From NCBI GenBank assembly GCA_029975295.1, contig JARKPK010000176.1, positions 1-32,569 on the forward strand: DNA of 32,569 nt. Direction: 5' to 3'. Shown here in pieces: positions 5,261 to 25,587 of the stretch. The notes under the pieces are model-generated. The model was given only the letters and a program-made list of their open reading frames with translations. It searched no databases and was not told the DNA's origin. The translations under genes were made by a program, and so were the position numbers. How positions within the stretch are numbered: position 1 is the first letter of the stretch; each line of letters opens with the position of its first letter. The stretch comes from Thermoguttaceae bacterium (GTDB lineage: Bacteria > Planctomycetota > Planctomycetia > Pirellulales > Thermoguttaceae).

Positions 5261-6480
<1,220 letters not shown>

Positions 6481-6591
6481 TCGCCGCCGAGAATGATAGG
6501 GCCTTCCGCCGGCGCAATAATGCCGCGAATCACCGTCTGATGGCCGACCCGCGAAGCCCAACTTGGGAAGCTAGCACGCGGGACGAAACAA

Positions 6592-6620
6592 GGCCGCCGA
6601 TGGCTACCCATCGGCGGGCC
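6592..6620. terminator. GC-rich hairpin between convergent genes
   Basis: A 12-bp stem with one bulged G (CCGCCGATGG, loop CTAC, CCATCGGCGG, closed by two further pairs) lies 112 bp after the esterase stop. The next gene converges from the right. No T-run follows on either strand, so it may slow polymerase or protect mRNA ends instead of acting as a classic intrinsic terminator. Confidence 0.35.
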
Positions 6621-6641
6621 GAATCGGGTGATCCGTTCTAA

Positions 6642-6756
6642 CTTGGTTACGGCATCCGAGAGTGCCGCGAATGCGGCCACAACTTCGTCGCCCGCCACCG
6701 CCTGCGGAGCCTTGTCTAAAGCTCATCTCAGTCTGTTGACGAGCTGAGCCGCAGGC
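6642..6756. other. zinc-knuckle-like coding scrap and long-loop hairpin
   Basis: On the plus strand, 6642-6719 reads as 25 residues ending in a stop, with IRECRECGHNFVARHRL. That resembles the second cysteine pair of a zinc ribbon such as those of NrdR or phage Ogr-type proteins. There is no start codon and a stop lies immediately upstream, so at best it is a gene fragment. Overlapping it, GCCTGCGG (6700-6707) pairs with CCGCAGGC (6749-6756), and an inner AGCTC/GAGCT pair sits within the loop. The rest of 6481-6854 holds no gene that I can support. Confidence 0.2.
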
Positions 6757-6854
6757 ACTCGGGGAACAGCAGCGAACAGAAAGCCCTTTTCGCCCGCCGG
6801 GGCAACAAGGGTGCTTGCCGGGCAATCTTCACCGACGCAACCAGCCGCTCGACG

Positions 6855-8171
6855 TCAAACGAACTTGGTTATGCCGGGCAGCGGGGCGGCATAGCGACCG
6901 TCAGGACTAGGACGAATCGGCGGTTCAATATCCCAATCGTAGCGCGGGAGCGAAAAATCGAGCGTCGACTCCATTGCCTTCTGCCAAGTGATTTCCTGGC
7001 CGGTGTAGCAGACCATTTGTGCCATGATCGCCAGCATCGTGCTGGTGAACATATAGTTGGAATTATTGATCGGATTGCCTGACCGGATGCCGGCGAACAG
7101 TTCGAGGTGCTCGACATCGTACATGCTTTGCTTCGGTCCATCATACTTCCAAGCGTTTTGACCTTCGATGCGCGGCCGCGAGGGCAGCACAGCCCGCCCC
7201 TTCGTGCCGAGGATCGTGTCGCTCGTATCGTTGAAGCACCCTGGGATCGCGCGGCAGTACGCGAAGACCCGCACGCCGTTGGCGTATTCGAAGACGACAG
7301 CATGATGGTCGAACTGGTCGCCATACTCGGGATCGACGCACACCTGCCGGCCTCCCATGCCCCAAGCCTTCACGGGCGGCACGTCGCCCAAGGCCCACGA
7401 GGCTTTATCGAGGCTGTGGATCAATTGTTGTGCGGTCTGATCTCCCGAGAGCCAATTGAAGTGATACCAGTTCTGCATCTGGTATTGCAGTTCAGTCCAC
7501 TCCGGTTGGCGACGGCGAAGGACGTAGGGGTTGGTTAGGTAGTTCTCCTGAATGGCGATGATCGTGCCGATCTGCCCATCGTGAACTCGCTTCATCGCTT
7601 CGCGCACGCCGGGGTCGTAGCGCCAGCACAGGCCGGACACGAGGCTAAGCTTCTTCTGACGAGCGACTTCGGCCGCAGCCATCGCGATTTTCAGCCCTGG
7701 CACGTCGATCGCGTGCGGTTTCTCGCAAAAAACGTGCTTGCCCGCCGCGATAGCTGCCTCGAGGTGCCGCGGATGGAAATGCGAGGCGGCGGCGATGAGT
7801 ACGACATCGACGCCCGCCTCGATCACCTTCTGATAGGCGTCGAACCCGGCAAAACGTCGATCGGCCGGCACGTCAACCTGATCGGGCTTTTGCTGTTTCA
7901 GCCGCGCATACGAATTCTCGACACGTTCGGCAAAAAGATCTCCCATAGCCACCAGGCGCACATCGGCCCCGGCATTCATCGCGTTCAGCGCTGCCCCGCT
8001 CCCGCGACCGCCGCAACCGATCAGCCCGACCTTGATGATTCCCTCGCCCGCTGCGTGGGCCGATCGCTCGATCGACAGGGCCGCCAGCCCGCCGGCGCCC
8101 AACAGGGCAGTCGATTTCAAGAAGTCGCGACGCGAATCTGTCGTCTTAACGTGGCGTGATGTGTTGCTCAT
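6855..8171 (-). CDS. Tat-exported Gfo/Idh/MocA family oxidoreductase
   Basis: The 438-aa product is a probable NAD(P)-binding sugar-modifying enzyme exported already folded. Its start is preceded by GGAGGAAACATC. Residues 13-45 form a Tat signal (DSRRDFLKSTALLGAGG, ending SAHAAGEG). The Rossmann motif follows (VGLIGCGGRGSG, about 48-59), and the family signature EKP appears in FCEKPHAID. The C-terminal alpha/beta domain includes GDQTAQQLIHSLDKASW, typical of the long planctomycete members. It is the last gene of a four-gene unit, 15 bp after the preceding oxidoreductase. Tat export suggests that it keeps a tightly bound cofactor outside the cytoplasm, as known for glucose-fructose oxidoreductase. 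The substrate is unknown; oxidation to or reduction of a keto-sugar, or cofactor-recycling glycoside cleavage, are the reasonable options. Confidence 0.92.
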   Translation of the reverse strand: MSNTSRHVKTTDSRRDFLKSTALLGAGGLAALSIERSAHAAGEGIIKVGLIGCGGRGSGAALNAMNAGADVRLVAMGDLFAERVENSYARLKQQKPDQVDVPADRRFAGFDAYQKVIEAGVDVVLIAAASHFHPRHLEAAIAAGKHVFCEKPHAIDVPGLKIAMAAAEVARQKKLSLVSGLCWRYDPGVREAMKRVHDGQIGTIIAIQENYLTNPYVLRRRQPEWTELQYQMQNWYHFNWLSGDQTAQQLIHSLDKASWALGDVPPVKAWGMGGRQVCVDPEYGDQFDHHAVVFEYANGVRVFAYCRAIPGCFNDTSDTILGTKGRAVLPSRPRIEGQNAWKYDGPKQSMYDVEHLELFAGIRSGNPINNSNYMFTSTMLAIMAQMVCYTGQEITWQKAMESTLDFSLPRYDWDIEPPIRPSPDGRYAAPLPGITKFV

Positions 8172-8186
8172 GATGTTTCCTCCAGA

Positions 8187-9221
8187 TCACGTTGAAGATC
8201 TATTGCGCCGATAGGCGCGATCCGTAAGTTCGGCGATTCGCAGGGCGTTTTCGGGGCCGTTGATCGCCGGCGGGATTCCGCGACGGACGCACTCGGCGAA
8301 GTAGTCGCATTCGGCCGTGTAGGGATTGGTCTTCTCGAACTCCACGGGTTGGAACCGTCGCGCGTCGTCTTTGCTTTGCATCGCATCGTACGCGGCATCG
8401 CCGAGGCCGAAGACGCCCTCCATCAGTCCGCCGTCGCCTTGTCCAATGGTGCCCTCGGTAAGCACCGCGCCCTGCGAACCGTACACTTCGAGCCGCGTGC
8501 GCGAGGCCTCATCGGGAATGCAGTAGAAGCAATCGACCGTTGCGTGAGCGCCCGAGGCGAATTCTAAAAGCGTCGTCGATGCGTCCTCCGAACGGTAATT
8601 ATGCACCAAGTTGCCCGTGAATGCTTCGATCCGCCGCACGGGCCCGGCGAAGTGCATGAGCAGATCGTAGAGGTGCGTGGCCATGTCGATCAGTGCGCCT
8701 CCGCCGCCGGTCTCCGGGGCTTGACGCCAGGCGCCCGCGATCGGGGGATACCAGCACGAAAGCTGGGCCCGCAGATAGACAAGCCGTCCGAGCCGTCCGG
8801 CGTCGATCAATTGCTTGAGCCGAACGTGGGCCCCGTGGAACTTCATCATGAAGCCCTCTTGCAACATCACCCCGTGCCGCGCGCAGCACTCGACCGCGGC
8901 GCGCGTTTCGTCGAATGTGGCCGTCAGCGGCTTCTCGCAAAGGATGTGTTTTCCGGCCGCAGCCGCCAGTTCGATCTGCCGCGCGTGGCACATCACCGGC
9001 GAGGCGATATACACGGCCTCGACCTCGTCGTCGGCAAGCAAAGCGTTCACGTCGTCGTACGAACGCGGAATCCCGAATTCGGCGGCGACGGCGCCCGGGG
9101 CGACGGGGTCCATGACCGCAACAACGCGGCAATGCGTGCTGCCGAGCATGGCGGGAATCGTGCGCCGACGGGCGATTCCTCCCGCACCGATAACGCCAAA
9201 GGCAAGCCGAGTGGCCGTCAT
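8187..9221 (-). CDS. cytoplasmic Gfo/Idh/MocA family oxidoreductase
   Basis: The 344-aa product is an NAD(P)-dependent dehydrogenase for a sugar or cyclitol. A GGAGG sits just upstream of the ATG. There is no signal peptide: the Rossmann motif GVIGAGGIARR begins at residue 9. ILCEKPLTATFDE holds the EKP signature lysine, and the second domain contains GGGALIDMATHLYDLLMHF with the usual D and H of the active site. The start is 13 bp after the aminotransferase stop and the stop is 15 bp before the Tat-exported paralogue, so co-transcription is very likely. The pairing with a DegT aminotransferase recalls pathways in which a dehydrogenase makes a keto-sugar or keto-inositol that is then aminated, or the reverse during breakdown. 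The actual substrate is not visible. Confidence 0.92.
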   Translation of the reverse strand: MTATRLAFGVIGAGGIARRRTIPAMLGSTHCRVVAVMDPVAPGAVAAEFGIPRSYDDVNALLADDEVEAVYIASPVMCHARQIELAAAAGKHILCEKPLTATFDETRAAVECCARHGVMLQEGFMMKFHGAHVRLKQLIDAGRLGRLVYLRAQLSCWYPPIAGAWRQAPETGGGGALIDMATHLYDLLMHFAGPVRRIEAFTGNLVHNYRSEDASTTLLEFASGAHATVDCFYCIPDEASRTRLEVYGSQGAVLTEGTIGQGDGGLMEGVFGLGDAAYDAMQSKDDARRFQPVEFEKTNPYTAECDYFAECVRRGIPPAINGPENALRIAELTDRAYRRNRSST

Positions 9222-9234
9222 CGAATCCTCCGCC

Positions 9235-10524
9235 TCAGCTATAGGCTTTGATCACTTTCACCAACCCGGCGGCAATCTCTTTCATGTTGTCCGCGGTGAA
9301 GGTGGGGTACGCGAAGCAAGTGAACGTGTGCGACTCATGCCAGCGCGCGTTCGGCACCTCGACCTTGCTGTAATCGACGCTTCTCGGATCGGTGTATTCC
9401 TGCGAAGTGAAGGGAAAACCCGACCGGCCGAATCCGCGGTGTTCGATAAATGCCCGCTCGGTGTGGCACTGCGGCCAAAATACCTTCCAGCAGGGGCACC
9501 CCTCGGCCGCCGCTGCCTTGACAAACTGCTGGATGTCGCACGACATGTTCTCGATATCGAGCGAAAAGGCGCAAACGTACCAGCCGTTCTGCCGCTCGGG
9601 CGTGTCGATGGGCCGATACAGCACTTGCGGAAGCTCGGCCAGAGCATCGATCAAGATCCTCGCATTCTCGCGCCGTCGCGGCATGTTCCACGTATCCATG
9701 CGATCGATTTCGGCCAGCCCGATGGCCGACTGCATTTCGGTCATCCGATAATTCCACCCCACGCGGTTGTGAATGTAGGGCAGCTTCTGTTCCAGCGCCA
9801 GCAGATTCAGCCGCTGGCGTACATCGTAACCGTGATCGCGAAAACTGCGAGCTTCCCAGGCCAGGTCTTCGTCGTCGGTGGTGACCATGCCCCCTTCGCC
9901 GCCCGTGGTGAAGGTTTTGTTCTGGCAGAAGCTGACGGCGGCCATGTGCCCCAGGGTTCCCGTTTTCCGCCCTTTGTAAACGCCGCCGAAGGCCTCGGCA
10001 TTGTCCTCGATGACGAACAAATTGTGGCGACGTGCGAAATCCAACAGCGGGTCCATGTCGCAAACGTTGCCGTAAAGATGCACCGGAATAATCGCCTTGG
10101 TGCGCGGCGTGATGAGCCGCGCGGCCGATTCGAGACTGATACAATGGTCTTCGCGGTTGACATCGGCGAACCGCGGAATCGCCCCCGCCTGGACGACGGC
10201 AAAGCTCGTGGCGATGAACGTGTAGCTGGGCACAATCACCTCGTCGCCGGGCCCGATGCCCAGCGCACTAAGGCACACATGCAGCGCAGCGGTGCCGGTG
10301 GCCGTGCTGACTGCATAGCGGCTGCCTTGCCATTGGGCGAAGCGGCGTTCGAACTCCATGCCCTTCGGACCGGTCCAATAGTTCACCTTGCCCGAACGAA
10401 GCACGCTCTCGACGGCTTGGATGGCCGATTCGTCAAATTGCGGCCAGCCGACCAGCGTGCTGCTGACGGCCTTCGGTCCGCCGTCAATAGCGAGTTTTGC
10501 GGTGCGCGGCATGTCTTTAGACAT
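9235..10524 (-). CDS. DegT/DnrJ/EryC1/StrS family PLP aminotransferase
   Basis: The 429-aa product is a sugar aminotransferase of fold type I that moves an amino group to or from a keto-sugar or keto-cyclitol. I chose the ATG at 10524 because GAGGAG lies 6 nt upstream and the protein then starts MSKDMPRTAKLAIDGG; an in-frame ATG at 10605 would overlap the regulator gene. The core has the cofactor-binding TATGTAALH, the aspartate in FVIEDNAEA, and the Schiff-base lysine K203 in SFCQNKTFTTGGEGG. The later GWNYRMTEMQSAIGLAE is also standard. It lies 46 bp after the AraC gene and 13 bp before the cytoplasmic oxidoreductase. AHBA-, glutamine:scyllo-inosose- and PseC-type relatives cannot be told apart by eye. 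Confidence 0.93.
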   Translation of the reverse strand: MSKDMPRTAKLAIDGGPKAVSSTLVGWPQFDESAIQAVESVLRSGKVNYWTGPKGMEFERRFAQWQGSRYAVSTATGTAALHVCLSALGIGPGDEVIVPSYTFIATSFAVVQAGAIPRFADVNREDHCISLESAARLITPRTKAIIPVHLYGNVCDMDPLLDFARRHNLFVIEDNAEAFGGVYKGRKTGTLGHMAAVSFCQNKTFTTGGEGGMVTTDDEDLAWEARSFRDHGYDVRQRLNLLALEQKLPYIHNRVGWNYRMTEMQSAIGLAEIDRMDTWNMPRRRENARILIDALAELPQVLYRPIDTPERQNGWYVCAFSLDIENMSCDIQQFVKAAAAEGCPCWKVFWPQCHTERAFIEHRGFGRSGFPFTSQEYTDPRSVDYSKVEVPNARWHESHTFTCFAYPTFTADNMKEIAAGLVKVIKAYS

Positions 10525-10570
10525 ATTGGGCTCCTCGGAAATCGCCGTGGCGGAGTCCCCGGCGTGTCTG

Positions 10571-11512
10571 TTAGTAAACACCAATCGCCGCGGTTGCCGC
10601 CACACTCTTTCCGACCAATTCCGATACTTTTCCGACCGGTTCGACCAACCACGACGTGGCCCGCAGCGTGCGGCGGAATTCGCTGGGTGATAGCCCTTTC
10701 AGCCGCCGAAACTGGCGATTGAAGTTCGACAGGTTCGGATATCCGCAGGCCTGGGCCACTGCGGTAACCGCCAGATCGGTTTCGGCCAACAGCCGGCACG
10801 CACGGCCGATTCGCAGTTCGTTGACAAACGCCGGAAACCGTTGCCCCATGTGACGGCGGAAGAACCGCCCAAACGCCCCTTCGCTCATGTGCGCTACGCG
10901 CGCGGCTTCGGCCAGCCGCAAGGGGCGATGATAGTTTTCGTCAATGAAGCGGCAGACGCGGCTGATGCGCTCCTGTTCGTAAAACGTCGGCCTCGCCGTG
11001 AAGCCCAAACTGGCGATGGGCGACGCTCCCCGCGACTGGGCCAGTGTTTCCAGTAATTCCAAGAATTCGGCGATCCGCCCCACGCCGCGCCGATCGAGCA
11101 TGGCCGTCAATTGCGCTGCGACATGCTTGCGCGTCGCCGCGGGAAACTCCAAGCCGTTGGCGGCGCGCCGCAGCATGCGGCGCACCGGCGCCATCGCGGG
11201 CAGCGAAAACAGTTGGCCGAACACCGACTCCTCAAACTGCAACAATATGCAATGGGCCGCCGCCGGCGCGGTCGAGAATCGGTCGGTATGCTGGTAGGCA
11301 TGCGGCAGGTTCGGTCCGAGCAGCACCAGGTCGCCGTGATCCAGCGAATGCGTCGAATCGCCGACAATCCGATACCCCTGGCTCCGCAATACGAGGATCA
11401 GTTCCACTTCCGCATGGCAATGCCACGAACAGTTGCACGCCTCGCCGCGGATTTCTTTGAGCATGAACCCTTCGTCAGGGCAGCTCACCAATCGTTCGAA
11501 GATCGGCTTCAT
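10571..11512 (-). CDS. AraC family regulator with cupin sensor domain
   Basis: The 313-aa product is a transcription factor, presumably controlling its own operon. I chose the ATG at 11512 (MKPIFERLV) because a GGAAGAG-type site precedes it and the protein then begins at the cupin domain. An ATG at 11569 is open in frame but adds no recognisable sequence. The N-terminal half is a jelly-roll sensor (CSWHCHAEVELILVL, then LDHGDLVLLGPNLPHAYQ). The C-terminal ~100 residues carry two helix-turn-helix units: the first around RPLRLAEAARVAHMSEGAFG and the second around AVTAVAQACGYPNLSNFNRQ, followed by KGLSPSEFR. A serine- and proline-free tail (SWLVEPVGKVSELVGKS) ends it. Its ligand is probably a sugar. 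The phased direct repeats about 400 bp upstream are a candidate binding site. Confidence 0.92.
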   Translation of the reverse strand: MKPIFERLVSCPDEGFMLKEIRGEACNCSWHCHAEVELILVLRSQGYRIVGDSTHSLDHGDLVLLGPNLPHAYQHTDRFSTAPAAAHCILLQFEESVFGQLFSLPAMAPVRRMLRRAANGLEFPAATRKHVAAQLTAMLDRRGVGRIAEFLELLETLAQSRGASPIASLGFTARPTFYEQERISRVCRFIDENYHRPLRLAEAARVAHMSEGAFGRFFRRHMGQRFPAFVNELRIGRACRLLAETDLAVTAVAQACGYPNLSNFNRQFRRLKGLSPSEFRRTLRATSWLVEPVGKVSELVGKSVAATAAIGVY

Positions 11513-11916
11513 GGCGTTCTCTTCCAGCCGCCGGTGGTCCGGTGCAACAGCTAGTGTATCGAACCCCACCGCGTGTCGAAACAGGCGGCGGCCACCGCGC
11601 CCGGTTCGTTCGCCGATCTTTCTACCCCGCCTGAAACCAGCCGATCGCTCGTGCTCAGTGGCGTGGAACGGCCCCGTCCGCGGCGCTGCGACACGAAATA
11701 GGCTCGACAGGAGCGTCGTCGGATTCGGCCGAAGAAACCGGCCCGCTTGAAGAACAAGTGCGCTATGAATCGCCGTTCCGATTCGGCCCCATTTTCAATG
11801 GGACAAGGGCCAAAAGGCGGAGTCGGCCAACGCTCGATCTTACCACTCCTTTGGCTGGCACAATTCCAGTCCTGCGTCGGGTTGTGCGTAAGAGAGCAAA
11901 AAGAAATGTCTACCAA

Positions 11917-12789: not shown

Positions 12790-15700
12790 ATGGCACGCAA
12801 CAAGCAGCGGGGGCGGCGTGTGGAGTCGAAAGGCAAAGCGCGGGCGACGGCCCGCCGCTCGCTCCGCTTCGAGTCGCTCGAGCCGCGTCAGATGCTCAAC
12901 GGCGGACCGCTAGTGATCAGCGAGTTCTTGGCCAAAGCCAACACGAGCAACCCGAACGCCCTGGTTGACGACTACGGCACAAAGTCGGACTGGATCGAGA
13001 TCTACAATCCCACGGCGACCGCTATCGATCTGGTCGGCTACGCGCTGACCGACAGCAAGGGCGATCCGCTCCAGTGCCGCTTCACCGCCGACAGTTTCCC
13101 CACCGGCCAACCCACCACGATCGGCCCGGGCGAGTACAAGATCGTCTTTGCGTCAGGCCGGTCGAACTCGGGCAGCGTGATCTACGGCCCGGGCGGCCAA
13201 CTGCACACGAACTTCAAGCTGAGCGACGATCCGCCCGAGTACTTGGGCCTCATTCAGCCCGACGGATCGACCGTGGCCGCCGAGTTCGCGCCAAAGTATC
13301 CCGCGCAGGCAGCCGACATTTCGTACGGCTGGACGACCGACGGAACACGGCAGGGCTTTTTCTTCGAGCCCTCACCGGGCCTGCCCAACGGCAACGAGGT
13401 GAGCGCCAGTTCCGCCCCGATCATCATCAGCGAAATCATGTACAACACGGCGCGCGGCGCGCCGGGCAGCATTGGCTATCTGCCCGAGAACATCCGCGAG
13501 GAGTACATCGAGTTGTACAACCGCGGTGCGACGACCACGAGTCTGGCCGGTTGGCAAATCGACAATTGGTGGTTCACGCTCGAACCGCTGAAGCGCGTGA
13601 CCGGCGGGCTGACGCGCAACGGATTGATCGCCACGGCGGTCGTCGGCACGGGGCACGGCTACGCCGAAGGCGATTCGGTGATGATCACCGGCGCCGACCA
13701 GGCGGAGTACAACGGCGTCTTCACGATCACCGCCGTCACGGCCACCTCGTTCGACTACCTAATCACGGGCGCGCCCGCGGCGACTGCCACCGGCGCGATC
13801 ACCGTGCAGAAGGGGCCGCGGCTGGTGACCGGCATCGCCCGCGACGAGTGGGTCGCCACGGTGACGATGACCAATCACGGTTTCGTCAACGGCAACACGA
13901 TTCTGATCAGCGGCGCCAGCGAGGAACCGTACAACGGCGTGTTTACGATCGCGGATGTGACGGCCCACACGTTCACCTACCGGCTGGAGAATTTGCCCGC
14001 GGCCGCGGCCAGCGGCGCGATCGTCGCCCAAAAAGCCTCGCGAAACTTGCCCAACGTGAGCCTCGCCGGCCAGGGTTACCTGGCGATCGCCGCGGATGTG
14101 AAGTCGTTCCGCGAGAAATATCCGTTGGTGACCAACGTGGTTGCCGGCTGGACGTCGAAGCTGGCCAATAACGGCGAACAGATCACGTTGCGCGACGCCG
14201 CCGGCGAGACCGTCGATCGGGTGAACTACTCGAACGAGGGCGACTGGGGCATCCGCACGCGCGGCGAACAACTCGTTACCAATCTGACGCGCAGCGGCAC
14301 GTCGGTGACGATCACCGTGCCCTATCATGGCTACACACTGGCCGACCGGGCGGAAGACAAGGTGTATCGCATCGCGGGGGCGAACCAGGCCGAGTTCAAC
14401 GGCGAATGGACGCTCACCGCCGTGACGCGCGACACGATGACGTTCACGATCCCGGGCACGTCGTCCTCGGCCACGGGCACGATCACCGTGCAGAAGAAAG
14501 ACGCCGGCCATTACGGCTGGCAGTGGTACTCGGCAGCCGACGGCGGCGGAAAATCTCTCGAATTGATCAACGCCGCGATGTCGAACAACAACGGCCAGAA
14601 CTGGGCCGCCAGTACGATCACGGGCGGCACGCCCGGCGCGGCCAACTCCGTCGCGTCGGCCGACATTGCGCCGTTGATCAGCGATGTGACCCACTTTCCG
14701 ATCATCCCGCGTTCGACCGATCCGGTGTACGTCACCGCGAAGATCGTGGATGAGTTGGCCACGGGCATCCAGGCGTGGGTCTATTACCGTGTGGACGGCG
14801 CGGCGGCGTTTACGGCCTTGGCGATGGCCGACGACGGCCTGCACGGCGACGGCGCGGCCCGCGACGGCAAGTACGGTGCGATCCTTCCGGTCCAAGCGGA
14901 CCATACGGTGGTCGAGTTCTACGTCTTGGCGCGCGACAAGAACGGCGGCCCGGGCACGTTGACACGCACCTGGCCCGCCGCGGCCGGCTTCGGCAACGGC
15001 CAAACGGCCAACCTGCTCTACCAGGTCGACGACACCTACGACCCGACCGCCGCCTGGACGCCGGGCAGCCAGCCGGTTTATTGGCTGATTATGCGGGAGG
15101 TGGAGCGAGCCGAGTTGGCGCTGATCGGTTCGGTGGATCCCGACCGCTGGAGCGATGCGGCGATGAACGGCACGTTCATCACGGTCGATGGCAGCGGCGT
15201 CGAATTGATCTATCAAGCCGGCTTCCGCAACCGCGGCCACGGCACGCGCATCGGCAACAACGGCGCCAACAATTACAAGATTGAGATTCCGCACGACAAT
15301 CCCTGGAAGGGCCAAACCGAGACGATCATCAACTACCAGAACACGCCGTCGCAGGCGTTGGGCATGGCGATTTTCGAAGCGGCCGGCTTGCCCGGTCCCG
15401 AACAGCAGCCGCTTCAAGTCCGCGTCAACGGCGTGAACTGGGCGCTCACCACCAGCCGCATGTACGGCGCCTACGTCTCAAAGGAGCAATACAACAGCGA
15501 CTTCACCTCCCGCGCCTATCCCGACGACCCGGACGGCAATCTGTATGTCGTCCACTACACCGATTATCCCTACACGACTAATTCGGCCGCAGGCGGAGAA
15601 CTGGAGTATCGCGGCGCCAACCCCGACGCGTATCGCATGAACTACTTCAAGCAGACCAACGTCGCCCAGGATGATTGGTCCGACTTGATCAACCTGACGC

Positions 15701-18700
15701 GCGTGCTCGATGCCGCCAATCCGGCCGGCATTTCCGACGCCGACTTTTTGGCCGAGGTCAGCAAGGTCATCGACGTCGACCAGTGGTTCCGCTACATCGC
15801 CGTCGATACGATTCTCGGCAACCGCGAGGGCGGGCTCTACAGCGGTCAGGGCGACGACTACGGCCTCTACCGCGGCATGAACGATACGCGATTCATTCTC
15901 GTGCCGTGGGACACCGATACGCTGATGGTGTACAACGGCAGCGCCGAAAATCCGTACACCCGGTCGATCGTCGCCGGTTATCAAGACGTTGCCGGCTTGA
16001 CACGGCTGTTCACAAACCCCGACACGCTCGGCCGCTATTACGCGCAAGTCAAGCAGCTTTGCGAGACCGTTTTCGCCGCGGCGAACTTCAATCCGCTCGT
16101 CGAGCAAGTCCTCGGCGGCCGAGTCGATGCCTCCGATCCCGAGTGGACGCCCCAGTCGCAGCGCGACGCCATCAAGACCTGGATGGCCAATCGCGTGGCG
16201 AATGTGCTGTCGCAGCTTCCTCAGGTCGATTTCACGATCACCAGCCCGCTGGCCGTCCAAGGCGGCTATCCGACGACGACCTCGAACAGCACGTCGCTAA
16301 ACGGCACGGCCGATCCGATCGAAACTCGCTCGGTGCTGGTGAACGGCCAACCGGCCGCGCTGAACACGGCCACCGGCGCGTGGAGCATCGGCACAACGAC
16401 TGGCGGCAGCGGCGTGTCGGACTATCTCATTACGGCCGGCTCCGAATGGAAGTATTACGCCGCCCGCGGCTTCGACGTCACCGGCTACCAAGCCACCATT
16501 GCCGTGGCCGACATCGCGACGGCCGAAAGCGTCATCAGCAACCCGGCCAACCGCTCGGGCACGTGGACGCTCGACACGCAAACCACGCGACCGGCAACGA
16601 TCAACTTGCGCAACAGCGGCACAAGCGGCGGCGCATCGTACACGTTCCAAGAGGGGGTCAACGGTTACGCCGGCACGCTCGATACGCATATCCGCAAAAG
16701 CGCCCCGAACACGTCTTATGAAAACGCTACGCTCAATATCGACGGCGAGCTGACCACCGGTCAGGCCGATCCCGCTCACGGCTTGCTCTGGTTCAACAAC
16801 ATCTTCGGCACGGCCGACGGCCAGATCAAATCGACCGATGTGATCCAGAGCGCCACGCTGACGTTGAACATCACCAACAGCAGCGCGAACAGCATGTCGC
16901 TCTATCGCCTGCTCGGCAGTTGGGCGGAGACCATCACTTGGAACAGCGCTTTCGGAGCCAACGGCATCCAGAACAACGGCGTGGAAGCCGCGCTGACGGC
17001 CGACGCCTCGTTGCAGCCCGGCAGCACCGGCAAGTACACAATCGACGTGACGGCCGCGCTGCAAGCCTGGCAGGCGAACCCCGGCACGAACTTCGGCTGG
17101 GCGCTGCTGCCCAACGGCACCGACGGCATTCAGTTCTCCGCCAGCGAAGATGCCACCGTGGCCAACCGACCGCTATTGACGGTGGCGCTGGCCAGCGAGA
17201 CGGGCGCGGAGCGATTCACCAGCAACAACAGCCAGTTCCCCGGCCAAACGGCCGCGGTCGACAATTTCGTCGTCGAAGCCAAGTATCGCGTCTACATCCC
17301 CACCGCCGGCGCGTGGACCTTCGGAGTCAACTCCGACGACGGCTTCAAGTTGGAACTGACCAACGGCGTCGATCCGCCGCGGGTCATGTCGTTTGATGGG
17401 CCGCGAACTCAGGCCGACACGCTGACGACGTTCATCTTCGCGCAACCGGGCACGTATGATCTGCGGTTGATCTACTTCGACAACACGGGCGACGCGGCAG
17501 TCGAACTCTTCGCCGCCCCCGGATCTTGGACGGCATTCGACCAGACCAGCGCCTGGCGGCTGGTGGGCGACGTGGCCCACGGCGGCCTCGGCGATTCCGA
17601 CCAAGGAACCGCGTGGCGCGAGGCGACATTCGACGACAGCCGCTGGGCCTCGGGGCCGGCGGAACTCGGCTACGGCGACGCGCCGGGCCGTCCGGAAATG
17701 ACCACAACCACCTACGTCGACACCGACCCGACCACGCCGACCGTCGAGAAGAATTTCACCACCTACTTCCGCCGCACCTTCGAGGTGACCGATCCGGCAC
17801 AGTACACCGGCCTGATCGTCCACATGCTTTACGACGACGGCGCTGTGGTTTATCTCAACGGCACGGAACTGTTCCGCACCGCCAACATGCCGACCGGCGC
17901 AATCACGTCGACGACGCAGTCGGGCACGACCCCGAGTGAAACCACGTACTACGCCTTTCCCGTCGGAGCGGGCAACTTGCGTGCGGGCACCAACGTCCTG
18001 GCCGTCGAAATTCATCAAGACGGCGCCACCAGCAGCGACATCAGCTTCGACTTGAGGCTCGAAGCCACGCGCCCCGCCGGCACCGGCACAGGCCTTCCGC
18101 TCACTCCGGGGTTGAACCGCTTCAAAGTCGAGACCTTCGACGCCCCCAACGGCTCGGGCAACAAACTGGAGGAAGGCTACATCGACGTCTGGTGCAATCC
18201 GGCCACGCCGCTCGACACGCCGCCGCAACCTTCCGGCGATCCGGCCGGACTCGAGGCCGATCCGCACCTGAACATCGTCGCGCGCAACAGCTACGTTTCC
18301 GGCGCGCCGATCACGGTGCGCGTGGACGTGGTTGACGCGTTGGACCGCGTCGACCGCGACGTTTGGGACGGCCTGGTGACGCTCGTATCGAGCAACCCCA
18401 ACGTCACGCTGTCGGCCTCGCAGATCACGCTCTACAACGGCATCGGGAGCGTATTGCTCGTTCCCACATGGAACGGCATGGGCAGCGGTGATTTCACTTT
18501 GACAGCCGCTTGGACCGACGCCGCCCGCGGACTGACGCGCACGGTGCAAAAGGCCATGATCTGCCTTGACGGGGCGCCCCAAACGATCGTTTCGGGCATA
18601 CTCGCCGGCGACACGACCTGGAGCGGCGTCATCCACGTGACCGGCGACGTCACGGTTCCCGTCGGCGCCACGCTCACGATCCAAGCCGGCACACTGGTGC

Positions 18701-21700
18701 TGATCGACGGCGTAACATCGGGTACGGCGGGCTTTGACATCGATGTGCTCGGCAGCGTGCAGTCGCTGGGCACCGCGTTCGCCCCGGTTACCTTCACCAC
18801 GCCGACCTACGGGGACACGCTCGGTTGGGGCGAGATCCATCACGCCAACGCTGCTGCATCCCTCTATCAATATACAGAAGTGCTGCGTACCGGCCGCGCG
18901 CCGGGGCAAGGCCACACAGGCGCCGGCCCGGCCTTCAACGTCAGCGGTTCGACGATCGTCTTCGACCACAGCTCGATCAGCGACAACATCGGCAAGATCA
19001 TGCAGTCGGGCAGCGGTTCGAACCTCACATTCCGCGACAGCCTGTTGGCCCGAGCGGTCATGGGCCCGGAGATCGCCAACACCGCGCTGCTGTTCGAGAA
19101 CAGTTTCATCCAGACGATGCACAACGGCGACGACGCTGACGGCATCTATCTGCACGACCAGCAGCCGGGTCAGACGATCGTGCTCCGCGGGGGCGCCGTG
19201 GCCGACACCTTCGACGACGGCATCGACACCCTGAGTTCGACCGTGCTCATCGAGAACATGGTCGTCCGCAGCACGAACGACAAGGGCCTCAGCGTCTTCA
19301 ACGGCGACGTGTCGGTCCGCAACAGCCTCTTCGCCGAAAACGGCCTTGTGGCCGAGGACGGCACCTCAGTCGCCATCTCCGGCAAAAGCAACAACAACAC
19401 GACCACCACAATCTATCTCGACGGCGTGACGGTCTACAGCGACACGATCGCCATTCAGGCTCGTCGCAAAACCGTCACCAGCGGCGATGTGATCACCTAC
19501 CACGTCAAGAACTCGATCCTCGTCGCGCCGCAACCATTAGACATCAGTTCCGCCGTTGCGGGATTGCCGACAGGCAACTTCTTTATCGACTACACCGACA
19601 CGTTCGGCGACACTGCCGGCTACACAATCGTCGGCGGCAACAACATCAACGCCGACCCGCTGTTCCTCAGTGCAGCCGATCACGACTACCGCCTGGCCGC
19701 CGGCTCACCGGCCATCAATGCAGGCGATCCGGCCGGTCGGCCCGACTCGGACGGTTCGCGGGCCGACTTGGGCGCGCGGCCCAGCGGCGCAACCGGCGTC
19801 TACGCCCCGCAAACCATCACGGGCGGACACATCACCGTCAATACGCTGCTGTATCCGGAAGCCGGCCCGTACCGCATCACCGGCGACGTGATCGTCGACC
19901 CGGGCGTTACTCTGACCATCTTGCCTGGCACCACGGTGTTTTTCGACGCCGGCGCGGGACTGACCATCAACGGCCGGCTGGCGGCCGAGGGCACGGCGGA
20001 CAAATTGATCCGCCTGACGGCCTATCCCGGCGAGGGCTATTGGGACGGCATCCACTTCCAGAACACGATGGAGGACAACCGCATCACGTATGCGATCGTC
20101 GAGTACGGCGAGGGTGTGTACGGGGCCGGCGGCGACAACGCGATGATCGGCGTCACCAACTCGCGGCTGCTGCTCGACCACGACACGTTCGACCACGCCC
20201 GCTATCGCCGCATCCGCACGGTCAACTCGTCGCTGACGGTCACCAACTCGACGTTCACCGACTTGTTCGGCCCCGGCGAAGCGCCGCTGACGAACAACCG
20301 CAGCGAGCAAATCTGGGGCAGCAACGCGCCCAACGGCGGCTGGATTCTCATCCAAAACAACGTTTTCGGCACGACCAAGGGACACAACGACATTATCGAC
20401 CTCAATGGCGGGCATCGCGCCGCCGGCGCGCCAGTGCCGCGCATTCTCGACAACGTGTTCCTCGGCGGCGGCGACGACGCCCTCGACCTCGAAGGCGACT
20501 TCGTCATCGAAGGCAACACGTTCATGCACTTCCACAAGGATCCGCTTTATCACACGACCGAGTCGGGCGAAGCCAATGTCATCTCGGCCGGCGACGCAGC
20601 CAACGTCGGCTACGACTACCTCATCGCCCGCAACGTCTTCTACGACATCGACCACGCGGTTCTTATCAAGGACGGCTCCACGCTCAGTTTCCTGAACAAC
20701 ACGGTCGTCAATGTGACTGCCGGAAAGGCGGCGATCTACTTCGACGTCGTCGGGGATTCCGCCGGCGCCGGGCGCGCGGCGCACCTCGACGGCAACATCT
20801 TCGACGACGTTCCCCTCCCCATCGATCTCACGGTGCGCAGCGGCGCGCCCACGCCGACACTGACCGTCAACCGCTCGGTCATCGCTTCGGCTTGGCACGG
20901 CTACGGGACGGGCAATACGGCCGAGAATCCGCGGCTGGTCGATCCCGCTGGCGGCGACTTCCGTCTCCGCCCCGGTTCGCCCGCCCTAAACGCCGGGCCC
21001 AACGGCCTGAACATGGGCGCCAAAGTTGCCGGCGGCGCGTCGCTCGCCGGTGAGCCGGAAGCGATCACGCGGCTGACCTCCGCAGCGATTACAGTCGGCG
21101 GTCCGGGCATCACGCACTACAAGTACTTCGTCAACACGATCGGCGATTGGGCTGCCGCGCCCGAGTATCCGGTGGCCGTCCCGCTGTCGCTGACGGGACT
21201 GCCTGACGGCACCTACGTTGTTTACGTCGTAGGCAAGAACCTAATGGGCCAGTGGCAATCAACGCCTACCGCCTCACAAACTTGGACCGTCGCGGCGGCG
21301 CGGCAGCACGTGCGGATCAACGAAGTGCTTGCCCGCAACACGGCGGCGGTCGCCGTCGGGACCACGTACCCAGACATGATCGAACTGTTCAACGACGGGG
21401 GCGCGGCCATCGATCTGGGCGGCATGAGCATTTCCGACGACCCCGATGTGCCGGCGAAGTTCGTCTTCGCCGCCGGCACGGTGCTCGCTCCGGGCGATTT
21501 CCTGGTACTCTATGCCGACAACAAAGACGGGCCGGGCATTCACCTGGGTTTCGCACTCGATGGCGATGGCGACGGCGTCTATCTGTTCGGCGCCGAACCG
21601 GCCCCGTTGACGCCGCGCCCGCTGGTGGATTCAGTCGTCTTCGGACCGCAGATCGTCGACCTGTCGATCGGCCGCGTGGGGCACAATGCGGCGTGGGCAC

Positions 21701-24700
21701 TGACGCAGCCCACCTTCGGCGCGGCGAACATCGCTCAGCGCACCGGCGATCCAACCACGATGATGCTCAATGAATGGTTCGCCAGCGGCAACGTCCGTTT
21801 GGTCGATGACTTCATTGAACTCTACAACCCCGATCCATTGCCGGTTCTTCTGGCGGGCCTCTCGCTGACCGACAACGCGCTCAGCCAACCGGGCGAGCAT
21901 GCCATCGGGGCATTGAGCTTCGCGGCCAGCGGCGGCTTCGCGGCTTTCAAGGCCGACGGCAACACCGACAAAGGCCTCAATCACCTCGGCTTCCGCCTCG
22001 ATGCGCGCCAGGAGTGGCTCGGCCTGTTCGACGCCGATCTCAAGCTGCTCGACCGCGTTCTGTACTTTGACCAAACCGCGGATTATTCGCAGGGCCGCAG
22101 TCCCGACGGCGCGGGCCAGCCCTACCAGTTCTTCGGCCTGCCGACGCCCGGGGTAGCCAATGCCGCGCTGCCGGCCCACACCGCGCTGTTGGACGGCCTG
22201 CGCATCACCGAGATCATGTATAATCCGGCCGGCGACAACGACTGGGAGTACATCGAGCTGAAGAACATCGGTGCGACGACGCTCGACCTGACTGGCGTGC
22301 GGCTCGGCGGCGGCGTCAACTTCACCTTCGGAGCCATGCAGTTGGCCCCAAATCAGTACGTGGTCGTCGCCCGCGATGTCGCGAAGTTCGCCGCGCGGTA
22401 TGGTTCCGGCATCAACTTGGCGGGGCAATATGACGGCAGCCTCAACGACGGCGGCGAGGAAATCGTCTTGCAACTGCCCGATCCGTATGCGGCCGCAATC
22501 CTGCGATTCAACTACAACAATACCTGGTATCCGGCGACCGACGGCGGCGGCTACGCGTTGACGGTGATCGACACCGGCGCGTTGCCGGCCGCATGGGATG
22601 GATCAGCCAATTGGCAGACGGGCACGATTCTGGGCGGCTCCCCCGGCCGCGCCGACGCCGCTACGGTCGTCCCAAGCATCGTCATCAACGAGGTGCTCGC
22701 CCACACCGACGAGCCCTACGCCGATGCCATTGAGCTCTTCAACACCACCGACCAGGCGATCGACATCACCGGCTGGTGGCTCAGCGACGACGCCGGCAAC
22801 TTTCGGAAGTTCCAGATTCCTGCGTTGCCCGACGGCGCGCCGCGCATCCTGGGCGCTCATCAGTACGTTGTCTTCTATCAGGGCCATTTCGAAAACCACG
22901 TGCTCGTCTCCGATCCCGTTTACGAGTTCGGCGGAAGCGGTCCCGGCGACTTCGCCTTGAACTCGTATCTCGGCGATCAGGTGTGGCTGGCAGCCGGCGA
23001 CGCGGCGGGCAACGTCACGCAGGTGGTCGATTACGTTCAGTTCGGTCCCTCGGCCAATCCGCGAATCGCCGGCGTCGCTCATCCCGAATCGTTCGGCCGC
23101 TGGTCGGCCGATCCGGCCAATCTGTGGAAGGGGACGCTCTATCCGCTGGCGGCCCCCACGCTTGGCCAGGCCAACAACGCGGCCGACAACGGCCCGCGCG
23201 TTGGCCCGCTGCTGATCAGCGAATTGATGTACAATGTCGGCCCGGTGGCCAACGCGAGCGACCTGGAGTTCGTCGAGATTTACAACCCGACCTCCACCGC
23301 CGTCGATCTCCACCGCTGGCGTCTTTCCGGCGGTGTCGACTTCGACTTCTCAACCCTCGCGCCGGCCGACCGCACGATCGGCGCGCGCCAAACGCTGGTC
23401 GTCGTGTCGTTCGATCCGAATGATCCCGCGAACGCCGGCCGGCTGACCGCGTTCCGCAGCCATTACGGCATCGGAACCGCCGTGAAGATCGTAGGGGGCT
23501 TCTCGGGTAAGCTCAGCGACCTGGGCGAAACGGTGCGACTGCTCGATTACGACGAGCCCCCTCTGGAAGACCCGTCCCTCTATCCGTCGTTGTTGGAAGA
23601 CGAAGTGGCTTATAGCAACACCTGGGGAGCCAACGGCACCGGCCAGTCGCTGCACCGCAACGGCTCGGCCTATTGGGGCCACGATCCGGCAAGTTGGACC
23701 GCGGCCGCGGCAACGCCGGGCACGGCCGAAGCGTCGTCGCCCCGCATCGTCGCACGCAAGCTTTTCTACAACCGATCAGGCTACGACGGCGGCAGTGCGG
23801 CGGCCAACGCGGCCGACGACGGTGCGATCGCAATCGACAAGATGGCCCTGCTGCCAGGCGGCGCAGCGACGCTGGCGAACTACTCGAACTATGCCCGCGG
23901 TCTCAACGGCATCATGATCGACCTTGCCGGTGCGCCCAATGCGGCCGCAATTACCGCGGCCGACTTCACATTCAAGGTCGGCAACGACGATACGCCCGAC
24001 GAGTGGACTGCGGCTCCGGCGCCGGCGAGCGTCAGCGTTCGGCTCGGCGCGGGCGTCGGCGGCAGCGACCGGGTGACGATTATCTGGAGCGACAACGCCA
24101 TTGAGAACCAATGGCTGCAAGTAACGGTCAAGAACACTGCCAATACCGGCCTCGCGGTCGCCGACGTATTCTATTTCGGCAACGCCATCGGCGAAAGCGG
24201 CGACAGCCCGCTCAACACCGCTGTCGATCTGTACGACGAGCAGGCCGTTTTGGCCCATTTCACGGCCAGCGGCGCGACCACGATCGCCGACCCCTTCGAC
24301 TTCAACCGCGACGGAGTGGTGAACGACACCGACAAGTCCGTGGTGCAAGCCAACCACAGCGGAGCAACACCGCTTGTGTTGCTGGGCCGCTCGTTGGTGT
24401 TCAGCGCCGCCGCCGGCGTCTGGACCGACGCCGGCCTGACGCTGCGACTGACGGATGACGGTTTGCTCCACCTGTATCGAACCGGAACCACGATTGACGC
24501 CGTGGCGCCGGTGGCGGCCAGCAGCGTCAACGGCATCCAAATCACCGGCCGCAACAATCTGTTCGATACACTGACCATCGACTTCGGCGGCGGCAGCCCG
24601 CTTCCCAACAGCGGCCTCAGCTTCAACGGTGGTGCGGGCGCCAACACGCTGTCGATTGCCGCCGCTACGCGCAGCGACACGCTAACGATGAGCGCCTCAC

Positions 24701-25587
24701 AGTTGTTCGTCAACGGCGCGCCGGCCGTGAACGTGGCGAACGTGCAGAATTACCGCTTCGACTTGGGCGCCGGCGTGTTCGACCTCGGCGGCGAGGCACG
24801 CGCCGTCGGCGACCTCACGCTAGTCAGCGGCCAGATTATCAATGGAACACTGAATGCCGCCTCTTACACGATCCTCGGCGGCACGGTCAGCGCCTCGCTC
24901 GGCTCGGCCCCGATCACAAAGCAATCGGCCGAAACAGCCACGGTGACAACGCCCGTCGCCGCCACCACGCTCGACGTGCAAGATGGCCAATTGAAGGCGC
25001 CAACCATCGTGGCCGACACTTTAACAATCGGCTCGGGCGCGAAGTTGCAACTCACCGGCAGCGGCACGAGCGTCGTCAACTTCCTGAGCATATTCAGCCC
25101 TTCCGGCGGATTCGACTGGGCCGCGACGGACGCGGCGCCGCCTGTCGTCGTCGCGGCCAGCGAGCCGGCCGGCCCGACCGTATTGGCCGCCTCGCCGGAG
25201 CATGTCGCGCAGCCCGCGACCGTCACCGCGGTCGGTCCGGGCAATGCCGCATTGTTGACTGCCGACATCGAAATCCCGCTCGCGCTGTCGGACCGTTGCT
25301 CGGTCGATCTGGTCGAAACCGTTGATCTGTCGTGGGTCGGTATCAAGGCAAACGGCGGCACGCTGAGCCCGGCCGAAGCGTCGTGGACGACAACTCGCGG
25401 CGACGTGGCGCTGTGGATGGCCGCCTACGCCGAAGAGACGCGGCGAGCCGAACAGCAAACGTGGCGACTGGCAGACATCGAAGAATCGATTGCCCAGTTC
25501 GCTCCCGCGCGGAAAACACTGCCGCCGTGGGCGTTCGGACGCCCCGACCGCTTGCGTGTGACAATGAAGTCGGCCGTGGACCGTTAG
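12790..25587 (+). CDS. giant secreted mosaic protein: LEPR-x-L, lamin-tail, CotH-like, DNRLRE, beta-helix, dockerin-like
   Basis: A 4265-aa extracellular protein with unproven function, probably structural or adhesive. The ATG at 12790 has GAGG 9 nt upstream. A basic leader ends in FESLEPRQMLNGG (27-39), the planctomycete export-associated motif. Approximate residues: lamin-tail 1 (LTD, 41-205) and 2 (210-620, interrupted by three modules at 274-341, 349-415, 496-569); CotH-like 761-1147 (FRNRGHGTR, VPWDTDT); PA14-like region 1150-1577 with a DNRLRE module inside (1284-1467); jelly-roll 1579-1764; beta-helix regions 1931-2334 and 2338-2757; Fn3-like 2757-2837; LTDs 3-7 starting near 2841, 2991, 3137, 3296 and 3474; dockerin/EF-hand-like 3807-3858 (DFNRDGVVNDTD); then a low-complexity beta region. 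No sortase, PEP-CTERM or transmembrane anchor is visible at the C-terminus. The kinase activity known for CotH is uncertain here, because the usual catalytic signature is not obvious. The long unbroken frame argues that it is intact. Confidence 0.93.
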   Translation: MARNKQRGRRVESKGKARATARRSLRFESLEPRQMLNGGPLVISEFLAKANTSNPNALVDDYGTKSDWIEIYNPTATAIDLVGYALTDSKGDPLQCRFTADSFPTGQPTTIGPGEYKIVFASGRSNSGSVIYGPGGQLHTNFKLSDDPPEYLGLIQPDGSTVAAEFAPKYPAQAADISYGWTTDGTRQGFFFEPSPGLPNGNEVSASSAPIIISEIMYNTARGAPGSIGYLPENIREEYIELYNRGATTTSLAGWQIDNWWFTLEPLKRVTGGLTRNGLIATAVVGTGHGYAEGDSVMITGADQAEYNGVFTITAVTATSFDYLITGAPAATATGAITVQKGPRLVTGIARDEWVATVTMTNHGFVNGNTILISGASEEPYNGVFTIADVTAHTFTYRLENLPAAAASGAIVAQKASRNLPNVSLAGQGYLAIAADVKSFREKYPLVTNVVAGWTSKLANNGEQITLRDAAGETVDRVNYSNEGDWGIRTRGEQLVTNLTRSGTSVTITVPYHGYTLADRAEDKVYRIAGANQAEFNGEWTLTAVTRDTMTFTIPGTSSSATGTITVQKKDAGHYGWQWYSAADGGGKSLELINAAMSNNNGQNWAASTITGGTPGAANSVASADIAPLISDVTHFPIIPRSTDPVYVTAKIVDELATGIQAWVYYRVDGAAAFTALAMADDGLHGDGAARDGKYGAILPVQADHTVVEFYVLARDKNGGPGTLTRTWPAAAGFGNGQTANLLYQVDDTYDPTAAWTPGSQPVYWLIMREVERAELALIGSVDPDRWSDAAMNGTFITVDGSGVELIYQAGFRNRGHGTRIGNNGANNYKIEIPHDNPWKGQTETIINYQNTPSQALGMAIFEAAGLPGPEQQPLQVRVNGVNWALTTSRMYGAYVSKEQYNSDFTSRAYPDDPDGNLYVVHYTDYPYTTNSAAGGELEYRGANPDAYRMNYFKQTNVAQDDWSDLINLTRVLDAANPAGISDADFLAEVSKVIDVDQWFRYIAVDTILGNREGGLYSGQGDDYGLYRGMNDTRFILVPWDTDTLMVYNGSAENPYTRSIVAGYQDVAGLTRLFTNPDTLGRYYAQVKQLCETVFAAANFNPLVEQVLGGRVDASDPEWTPQSQRDAIKTWMANRVANVLSQLPQVDFTITSPLAVQGGYPTTTSNSTSLNGTADPIETRSVLVNGQPAALNTATGAWSIGTTTGGSGVSDYLITAGSEWKYYAARGFDVTGYQATIAVADIATAESVISNPANRSGTWTLDTQTTRPATINLRNSGTSGGASYTFQEGVNGYAGTLDTHIRKSAPNTSYENATLNIDGELTTGQADPAHGLLWFNNIFGTADGQIKSTDVIQSATLTLNITNSSANSMSLYRLLGSWAETITWNSAFGANGIQNNGVEAALTADASLQPGSTGKYTIDVTAALQAWQANPGTNFGWALLPNGTDGIQFSASEDATVANRPLLTVALASETGAERFTSNNSQFPGQTAAVDNFVVEAKYRVYIPTAGAWTFGVNSDDGFKLELTNGVDPPRVMSFDGPRTQADTLTTFIFAQPGTYDLRLIYFDNTGDAAVELFAAPGSWTAFDQTSAWRLVGDVAHGGLGDSDQGTAWREATFDDSRWASGPAELGYGDAPGRPEMTTTTYVDTDPTTPTVEKNFTTYFRRTFEVTDPAQYTGLIVHMLYDDGAVVYLNGTELFRTANMPTGAITSTTQSGTTPSETTYYAFPVGAGNLRAGTNVLAVEIHQDGATSSDISFDLRLEATRPAGTGTGLPLTPGLNRFKVETFDAPNGSGNKLEEGYIDVWCNPATPLDTPPQPSGDPAGLEADPHLNIVARNSYVSGAPITVRVDVVDALDRVDRDVWDGLVTLVSSNPNVTLSASQITLYNGIGSVLLVPTWNGMGSGDFTLTAAWTDAARGLTRTVQKAMICLDGAPQTIVSGILAGDTTWSGVIHVTGDVTVPVGATLTIQAGTLVLIDGVTSGTAGFDIDVLGSVQSLGTAFAPVTFTTPTYGDTLGWGEIHHANAAASLYQYTEVLRTGRAPGQGHTGAGPAFNVSGSTIVFDHSSISDNIGKIMQSGSGSNLTFRDSLLARAVMGPEIANTALLFENSFIQTMHNGDDADGIYLHDQQPGQTIVLRGGAVADTFDDGIDTLSSTVLIENMVVRSTNDKGLSVFNGDVSVRNSLFAENGLVAEDGTSVAISGKSNNNTTTTIYLDGVTVYSDTIAIQARRKTVTSGDVITYHVKNSILVAPQPLDISSAVAGLPTGNFFIDYTDTFGDTAGYTIVGGNNINADPLFLSAADHDYRLAAGSPAINAGDPAGRPDSDGSRADLGARPSGATGVYAPQTITGGHITVNTLLYPEAGPYRITGDVIVDPGVTLTILPGTTVFFDAGAGLTINGRLAAEGTADKLIRLTAYPGEGYWDGIHFQNTMEDNRITYAIVEYGEGVYGAGGDNAMIGVTNSRLLLDHDTFDHARYRRIRTVNSSLTVTNSTFTDLFGPGEAPLTNNRSEQIWGSNAPNGGWILIQNNVFGTTKGHNDIIDLNGGHRAAGAPVPRILDNVFLGGGDDALDLEGDFVIEGNTFMHFHKDPLYHTTESGEANVISAGDAANVGYDYLIARNVFYDIDHAVLIKDGSTLSFLNNTVVNVTAGKAAIYFDVVGDSAGAGRAAHLDGNIFDDVPLPIDLTVRSGAPTPTLTVNRSVIASAWHGYGTGNTAENPRLVDPAGGDFRLRPGSPALNAGPNGLNMGAKVAGGASLAGEPEAITRLTSAAITVGGPGITHYKYFVNTIGDWAAAPEYPVAVPLSLTGLPDGTYVVYVVGKNLMGQWQSTPTASQTWTVAAARQHVRINEVLARNTAAVAVGTTYPDMIELFNDGGAAIDLGGMSISDDPDVPAKFVFAAGTVLAPGDFLVLYADNKDGPGIHLGFALDGDGDGVYLFGAEPAPLTPRPLVDSVVFGPQIVDLSIGRVGHNAAWALTQPTFGAANIAQRTGDPTTMMLNEWFASGNVRLVDDFIELYNPDPLPVLLAGLSLTDNALSQPGEHAIGALSFAASGGFAAFKADGNTDKGLNHLGFRLDARQEWLGLFDADLKLLDRVLYFDQTADYSQGRSPDGAGQPYQFFGLPTPGVANAALPAHTALLDGLRITEIMYNPAGDNDWEYIELKNIGATTLDLTGVRLGGGVNFTFGAMQLAPNQYVVVARDVAKFAARYGSGINLAGQYDGSLNDGGEEIVLQLPDPYAAAILRFNYNNTWYPATDGGGYALTVIDTGALPAAWDGSANWQTGTILGGSPGRADAATVVPSIVINEVLAHTDEPYADAIELFNTTDQAIDITGWWLSDDAGNFRKFQIPALPDGAPRILGAHQYVVFYQGHFENHVLVSDPVYEFGGSGPGDFALNSYLGDQVWLAAGDAAGNVTQVVDYVQFGPSANPRIAGVAHPESFGRWSADPANLWKGTLYPLAAPTLGQANNAADNGPRVGPLLISELMYNVGPVANASDLEFVEIYNPTSTAVDLHRWRLSGGVDFDFSTLAPADRTIGARQTLVVVSFDPNDPANAGRLTAFRSHYGIGTAVKIVGGFSGKLSDLGETVRLLDYDEPPLEDPSLYPSLLEDEVAYSNTWGANGTGQSLHRNGSAYWGHDPASWTAAAATPGTAEASSPRIVARKLFYNRSGYDGGSAAANAADDGAIAIDKMALLPGGAATLANYSNYARGLNGIMIDLAGAPNAAAITAADFTFKVGNDDTPDEWTAAPAPASVSVRLGAGVGGSDRVTIIWSDNAIENQWLQVTVKNTANTGLAVADVFYFGNAIGESGDSPLNTAVDLYDEQAVLAHFTASGATTIADPFDFNRDGVVNDTDKSVVQANHSGATPLVLLGRSLVFSAAAGVWTDAGLTLRLTDDGLLHLYRTGTTIDAVAPVAASSVNGIQITGRNNLFDTLTIDFGGGSPLPNSGLSFNGGAGANTLSIAAATRSDTLTMSASQLFVNGAPAVNVANVQNYRFDLGAGVFDLGGEARAVGDLTLVSGQIINGTLNAASYTILGGTVSASLGSAPITKQSAETATVTTPVAATTLDVQDGQLKAPTIVADTLTIGSGAKLQLTGSGTSVVNFLSIFSPSGGFDWAATDAAPPVVVAASEPAGPTVLAASPEHVAQPATVTAVGPGNAALLTADIEIPLALSDRCSVDLVETVDLSWVGIKANGGTLSPAEASWTTTRGDVALWMAAYAEETRRAEQQTWRLADIEESIAQFAPARKTLPPWAFGRPDRLRVTMKSAVDR

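Follow-up and report, generated by a model that had tools for sequence, protein, structure and literature searches.

A predicted beta-barrel module akin to phage protein modules is inserted in lamin-tail and other host domains of planctomycete proteins

Results

Three copies of a small module, predicted to fold as a beta barrel and akin to a module of phage proteins, are inserted in the second lamin-tail domain (LTD) unit of a giant planctomycete protein, and the same module recurs as an insertion in unrelated host proteins. It is likely that a phage-type barrel, which by analogy may bind glycans, has been captured repeatedly in host loops through illegitimate recombination.

Insertions in the second LTD unit

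The window, that is the whole stretch of 32,569 nucleotides analysed, is contig 76 (C76) of a 5.0 Mb genome in 190 contigs. Its giant ORF (12790..25587, plus strand; 4265 aa) encodes several LTDs, CotH, DNRLRE, a weak PA14 and further repeats. The motif RSLRFESLEPRQMLN is found at the N-terminus, where Planc_extracel, the planctomycete extracellular motif, scored below its cut-off. The upstream neighbours (2738-11569) match an arabinofuranosidase, an esterase, two GFO/IDH/MocA oxidoreductases, a DegT-type aminotransferase and an AraC-type regulator, and a tRNA-Ser(GCT) lies just past the giant gene (25832-25918, minus strand). Pfam matches to CdAMP_rec, SLC35F and Inh were dropped, their scores being below the cut-offs.

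The host of the modules, LTD unit 2 (13414-14688; PF00932, 44.2 bits against a cut-off of 34.3), lies on the plus strand in three pieces. The first host piece (13414..13593; PIIISEIMYN..EEYIELYNRG..WWFTLEPLK) contains positions 7-44 of the Pfam LTD profile and is followed by modules 1 (13594..13815; residues 269-342) and 2 (13819..14040; residues 344-417) in tandem. The middle host piece (14041..14268; NLPNVSLAGQGYLAIAADV..EGDWGIRTRGE) holds the remainder of the LTD core, directly beyond which stands module 3 (14269..14502; residues 494-571), with an extra loop of five residues. The unit closes with a C-terminal extension (14503..14688; AGHYGWQWYSAADGGGKSLELIN..GQNWAAS..GTPGAANS..DIAPLISDV), whose conservation was recognised by homologue alignment and which terminates in GQNW..S...GTPG..NS. 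Each module comprises about 74 residues. The original prediction had placed three copies at about residues 274-341, 349-415 and 496-569, close to these profile hits, and the host motifs that it named are present and in order.

The Pfam LTD match halts before module 1 at profile position 44 of 109, so that modules 1 and 2 split the LTD core. In two module-free homologues the Pfam LTD ends at residues 105 and 114 (profile position 108), and in a Verrucomicrobial homologue it ends at 107, with a module beginning near 119; module 3 of the window, about 14 residues past the Pfam core, therefore stands between the core and the conserved C-terminal extension. The claim that all three modules lie inside one lamin-tail domain thus holds for modules 1 and 2, while module 3 sits at its edge.

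A search with LTD unit 2 at E 1e-10 gave matches in four of the 119 family genomes, the own genome included. Seven module-free LTD homologues from the same family (three in G010 and four in G018) have the flanks contiguous in every case, as had been expected for the segments around module 3. Relative to these homologues LTD unit 2 bears insertions, and the modules were rightly described as in-frame additions to an older unit; nor do all homologues carry modules at one place, since all seven close homologues are free of them. The homologue in G002, a genome of another genus, has all three modules at the same places at 55% identity.

By reading, other planctomycete LTDs (L207, L208, L212 and L213) carry an insert of another kind, some 100 residues long (N[G]..FD/E..GW type) and located after SLEL..AW..S and before GTPG.

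Predicted fold and family of the module

AlphaFold models were built from shallow alignments, with eight sequences for the window and 15 for a one-module Verrucomicrobial homologue. The three-module window model was of moderate confidence (mean pLDDT 70.5), its modules scoring 63-91 by blocks of ten (76-88 for module 1). The one-module model averaged 68.0, with 80-94 by blocks of ten over residues 121-190 and values below 50 in the portion following the module.

In VIA-align comparisons, module 1 of the window model matched the phi92 endosialidase 4hiz (Z 10.2, rmsd 1.9, 78 aligned) and the FCCH of UBA6 (7sol; Z 9.7, rmsd 2.2, 76 aligned), and module 2 (model residues 136-210) matched the E1 structure 5l6j (Z 8.8). 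The window model matched 3ju4 at Z 9.4, the endosialidase barrels ranging over Z 9.2-10.2 for 77-78 residues. The same two barrels, endosialidase and FCCH, were matched by the module itself in the one-module model, for which Foldseek gave 4hiz (E 1.7e-4), lamin 3jt0 (5.2e-4) and E1 6dc6 (3.0e-3). On these models, the modules are predicted to be a family of beta barrels of about 70 residues with the fold of the endosialidase barrel and the E1 FCCH half-domain. Sequence profiles agree weakly with the assignment: 4hiz gave a sequence-profile match to the module at 1.2e-3, PF12195 matched eight of 14 modules at E up to 5 (best 6.4e-4) and PF16190 two of the 14 (best E 0.014), with the curated cut-offs missed in each case where bits are given (13.8 against 35 bits for PF12195, first module; 17.3 against 29.5 bits for PF16190, L175 protein).

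Preservation of the host fold, which had also been proposed, is weakly supported. The portion before the module in the one-module model matched lamin A/C (1ifr; Z 10.7, 97 residues), and lamin was absent from the 50 best matches of the moderately confident three-module model (pLDDT 70.5) to solved structures.

The phage protein family phrog_9998 matches the giant protein in three stretches, with E = 4.8e-30 for the whole protein (PHROGs), which in sequence terms is far above chance level. The modules align to about positions 39-115 of its 401. Several other candidates were rejected. The match to BURRH (4cj9; E 5.5e-6), a repeat protein, is a sum of many short HG..D..I.G look-alikes; IcmX, scaffoldin and PPDK showed single weak stretches each; and riboflavin synthase and lumazine protein are look-alikes that span both tandem barrels only at rmsd near 10.

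Occurrence in cells and phages

The module is rare in the cellular genomes searched. With the phrog_9998 profile it was found in five of 119 genomes of the family at E 1e-4 (17 copies in 12 arrays) and, at E 1e-5, in 10 of 396 from the order. The own genome has nine matches, three in the window ORF and six in a second giant ORF on C180 (L006:133-13152; 4339 residues).

The family is common in phage proteins, as had been suggested. One module matched 26 of the 50,697 records of a phage collection (tblastn, E 1e-3), and at least 411 module relatives were found among the 600 pattern matches listed from IMG/VR, a subset of which (80 loci kept) gave 86 module-bearing viral ORFs with 158 modules. 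The viral proteins matched in fold by the one-module model include a fibre protein, one resembling baseplate J and an endosialidase. When the LTD unit 2 stretch was compared with the phage collection, one record matched, only within the module part. In bacterial contigs the module is also present in prophage-type baseplate J and head-completion proteins and, by reading, in PilY1-like and PQQ-propeller-like proteins (the latter below the Pfam cut-off), all four being copies without aligned empty sites. Several diverged modules are spaced along the L063 and L066 proteins, which have an LEPR motif near the N-terminus.

The modules of the own genome are 49-70% identical to their nearest copy in that genome and 49-65% to the nearest viral module among viral modules chosen by similarity. 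No donor was identified among the sequences searched.

Other host sites

The 12 arrays of the family are spread over eight different sites in their hosts. Every array splits a segment that is unbroken elsewhere, and one or more empty counterparts could be aligned for every site. Besides the LTD core and the LTD joint, both filled in C76 and G002, homologue alignment located modules in the C-terminal strand of a PA14 domain (one module), the N-terminal part of PA14 (three) and a CHB_HEX_C domain (two) in C180, and in CHB_HEX_C (one) and CotH (one) in G002, the CotH site being aligned with a single empty counterpart. A Y_Y_Y-like domain is filled in G018 and G010 and empty in the window protein, and an RHS region is filled in G015, with three empty rows of differing lengths, one of which has another small insert.

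Outside the family, a sodium:solute symporter (PF00474) of G319 carries one module between two putative transmembrane stretches. The site is empty in all five aligned relatives (five of 19 loci from other genomes) and, by tblastn, also in the congener G217. The flanks of the symporter module are likewise contiguous in these relatives. The description of the module as mobile-like is apt in the sense that it has proved transplantable over evolutionary time (12 of 12 arrays, eight sites and the symporter); as a statement about an active mechanism it is taken up below.

Some further arrangements were observed in the same proteins. In C180, CotH occurs in two stretches, apparently set apart by PA14 repeats and modules that together run to several hundred residues. 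At about residues 270-450 of L043 (G002 C26), a C-type-lectin-like stretch was read amid a domain that is shorter in C180. In the window, at 16282-18300, DNRLRE is seemingly nested in PA14, and PA14 in an Ig-like unit. The first half of this unit, labelled by reading (LNGTADPIETRSVLVNG..TGAWSI; 16282..16497, plus strand), is interrupted, and its second half lies near 18094. The DNRLRE domain (16681..17184, plus strand; NF033679, 68.1 bits) falls by alignment seemingly within the PA14 domain, which scored 19.6 bits against a cut-off of 24, its match running from profile position 34 at 17230. The DNRLRE in the PA14 of the giant ORF seems to be a nested insertion of a kind other than the barrel modules. 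In the G002 homologue, the DNRLRE stretch was matched twice in tandem, directly after the first half of the Ig-like unit.

Repeated filling of the LTD joint

At the position of module 3 (site 3), a module is also present in eight LTDs from Verrucomicrobia, a pattern that, like the equal places of the three modules in G002, would also suit modules that were an ancestral part of the LTD unit and were lost in most homologues, with no repeated insertion. In a tree of 44 LTD rows built without the modules, site 3 is filled in ten rows, which are not one clade and need three changes, at least two of them by well-supported branches. A single gain with two losses could account for these changes; against that, module 3 is missing in 34 of the 44 rows and a single clade of the ten carriers was rejected (AU p 0.017; groups seen before the test). 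The eight Verrucomicrobial rows as one clade were not rejected (AU p 0.21; groups likewise seen beforehand). The rows are the best matches from chosen loci, not all matches; one LTD search had matches in 75 of 146 genomes, giving 30 loci, seven with a module. The 94 LTD hits were reduced to 44 rows, three of them other LTD types, with five duplicate loci dropped together with rows in which the G[L/V]-W motif was missing after the site or fewer than 80 residues were left there.

A tree of the modules themselves has 73 columns and mostly weak forks, and holds 38 of 168 distinct modules taken by origin, the viral ones being the first eight. The two Pirellulales site-3 copies pair in it (97/90), and the pair joins modules 1 and 2 of its own protein and one C180 module (87/55) rather than the Verrucomicrobial copies; one clade of all site-3 copies gave AU p 0.0496, the groups again having been seen before the test. 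Loss within the LTD family, moreover, cannot account for the copies in PA14, CotH, RHS and symporter hosts, and an ancestral origin is judged unlikely. As the two trees suggest, Pirellulales and Verrucomicrobia probably acquired their site-3 modules in separate events; that one joint was filled twice is the preferable reading, short of proof.

DNA at the module junctions

The module could also be thought of as an actively mobile, in-frame protein-coding element with a DNA mechanism of its own, for which the Rickettsia palindromic elements are a comparable case. Its rare and scattered in-frame copies in unrelated genes, the gain or loss in the symporter inside one genus and the probable repeated use of LTD site 3 all fit such an element. 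The junctions do not. The longest direct repeat had a mean length of 6.1 nt over 13 arrays (5.8 nt when shuffled) and the longest inverted repeat one of 5.6 nt (5.8 nt when shuffled), so that neither target-site duplications nor terminal repeats stood out from the shuffle level. One array has a 9-nt flanking direct repeat (reached in 1-2% of its shuffles) and another an 8-nt repeat (5-6%), which is about the expectation from 13 tests. The junction residues vary, with no common target sequence among the 22 junctions listed, and no recombinase family was found among the matches of the ten neighbouring ORFs.

No module junction was recent enough to reveal the mode of DNA joining. When Y_Y_Y-like copies with and without a module within one protein (L045) were aligned as DNA, no clean junction emerged, and the insertions of the window are old, given that they are common to G002, another genus, at 55% identity. 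Protein identity among the copies of the own genome does not exceed 70%, which is not what recent clones would show, and all nine copies are confined to two genes. With repeats at chance level and window modules common to another genus, an active mobile mechanism is unsupported; the active recombination mechanism that had been suggested for these repeats was not borne out, and a self-mobile element is very improbable.

That the modules are ordinary linkers between separate domains, and the insertion an artefact of domain boundaries, would agree with the position of module 3 beyond the Pfam LTD end and with the tandem arrays of many bacterial and phage copies, and it is a highly unlikely reading, as the Pfam LTD is split by modules 1 and 2 at position 44 of the 109 in its profile, the copies in PA14, CHB_HEX_C, CotH and Y_Y_Y-like domains interrupt conserved segments for which empty counterparts exist, and the surroundings of site 3 are contiguous in all seven homologues.

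Discussion

The favoured explanation remains the repeated capture of a phage-type barrel in host loops. Being a self-contained unit, attached to its host by two loops at least in E1, the barrel could enter a surface loop and leave the host intact. In LTD unit 2, capture would have taken place at two sites before the split of the own genome (G000) and G002, one being a loop within the core, which received the tandem pair, and the other the joint of the core and the C-terminal extension. The most likely route would be ordinary illegitimate recombination, with donor DNA of phage type or from cells. Unequal crossing-over may then have led to tandem growth, as may be seen in CHB_HEX_C with its two modules in C180 and one in G002, and selection would have favoured in-frame, foldable and surface-exposed sites, followed by long inheritance. 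The modules probably add ligand-binding patches to the giant protein, presumably at the cell surface, and these may be glycan-binding, by analogy with the polysialic-acid site of the endosialidase barrel.

A further possibility is that phage infection, or phage-like DNA, keeps re-seeding the loops of unrelated cellular proteins with an itinerant barrel, and that certain loops, the joint behind the LTD core among them, serve repeatedly as landing sites. This is put forward tentatively and is doubtful at present; if true, the FCCH of E1 and the endosialidase barrel would be two further landings of one ancient insertable fold.

Domain insertion is common, and the usefulness of the present case lies in a single small module whose unrelated hosts are many and whose sites, filled or empty, can be compared within a family and even within a genus. 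Such sites allow it to be asked which loops accept inserts, how often the same loop is used again and whether phages act as donors. One fold, living repeatedly as an insert, connects proteins of phages and giant proteins of bacteria with E1 enzymes.

Comparison with known systems

Phage Ig-like modules are promiscuous and common to phage structural proteins; they differ in fold from the present module and are often terminal additions. The modules match one part of the phage family phrog_9998, the remaining profile being unmatched here.

Two further analogues are barrels with a fold alike by model. The endosialidase beta barrel (PF12195; K1F and phi92 endosialidases; 1v0e, 3ju4, 4hiz), to which the sequence link is weak, is a small barrel within the larger catalytic domain of a tail spike, much as the module lies within its host, and in K1F it is one of three polysialic-acid sites (PMC12632334). 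The present modules differ in occurring in giant planctomycete proteins and in tandem copies, and in sequence they fall below the Pfam cut-off where bits are given. The FCCH of ubiquitin-activating enzymes (PF16190) is likewise an insertion tethered by two loops, in this case in the inactive adenylation domain of E1 (PMC12355090). It differs in its E1 host and its contact with ubiquitin, and the sequence match of the module is below the cut-off.

In the open-licence PMC literature, at the level of titles and abstract openings, no account of the module as an insert of LTD proteins was found. PMC5177795 and PMC6461901 mention lamin tail domains or giant planctomycete genes, with no word of inserts in the available text of either. 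The main text of a paper reporting domain insertion to be widespread (PMC13114784) does not contain the words FCCH, endosialidase or lamin.

Small domains inserted independently, that is polyphyletically, are on record in the conserved domains of bacterial RNA polymerase, namely BEAN and HABAS, which differ from the module in having other folds, a single enzyme as host and, in the available text, no phage link (PMC11515920). Given this precedent and the reported prevalence of domain insertion (PMC11515920; PMC13114784), the capture of the module appears to belong to a known kind of event, for which the present set offers unusually good pairs of filled and empty sites.
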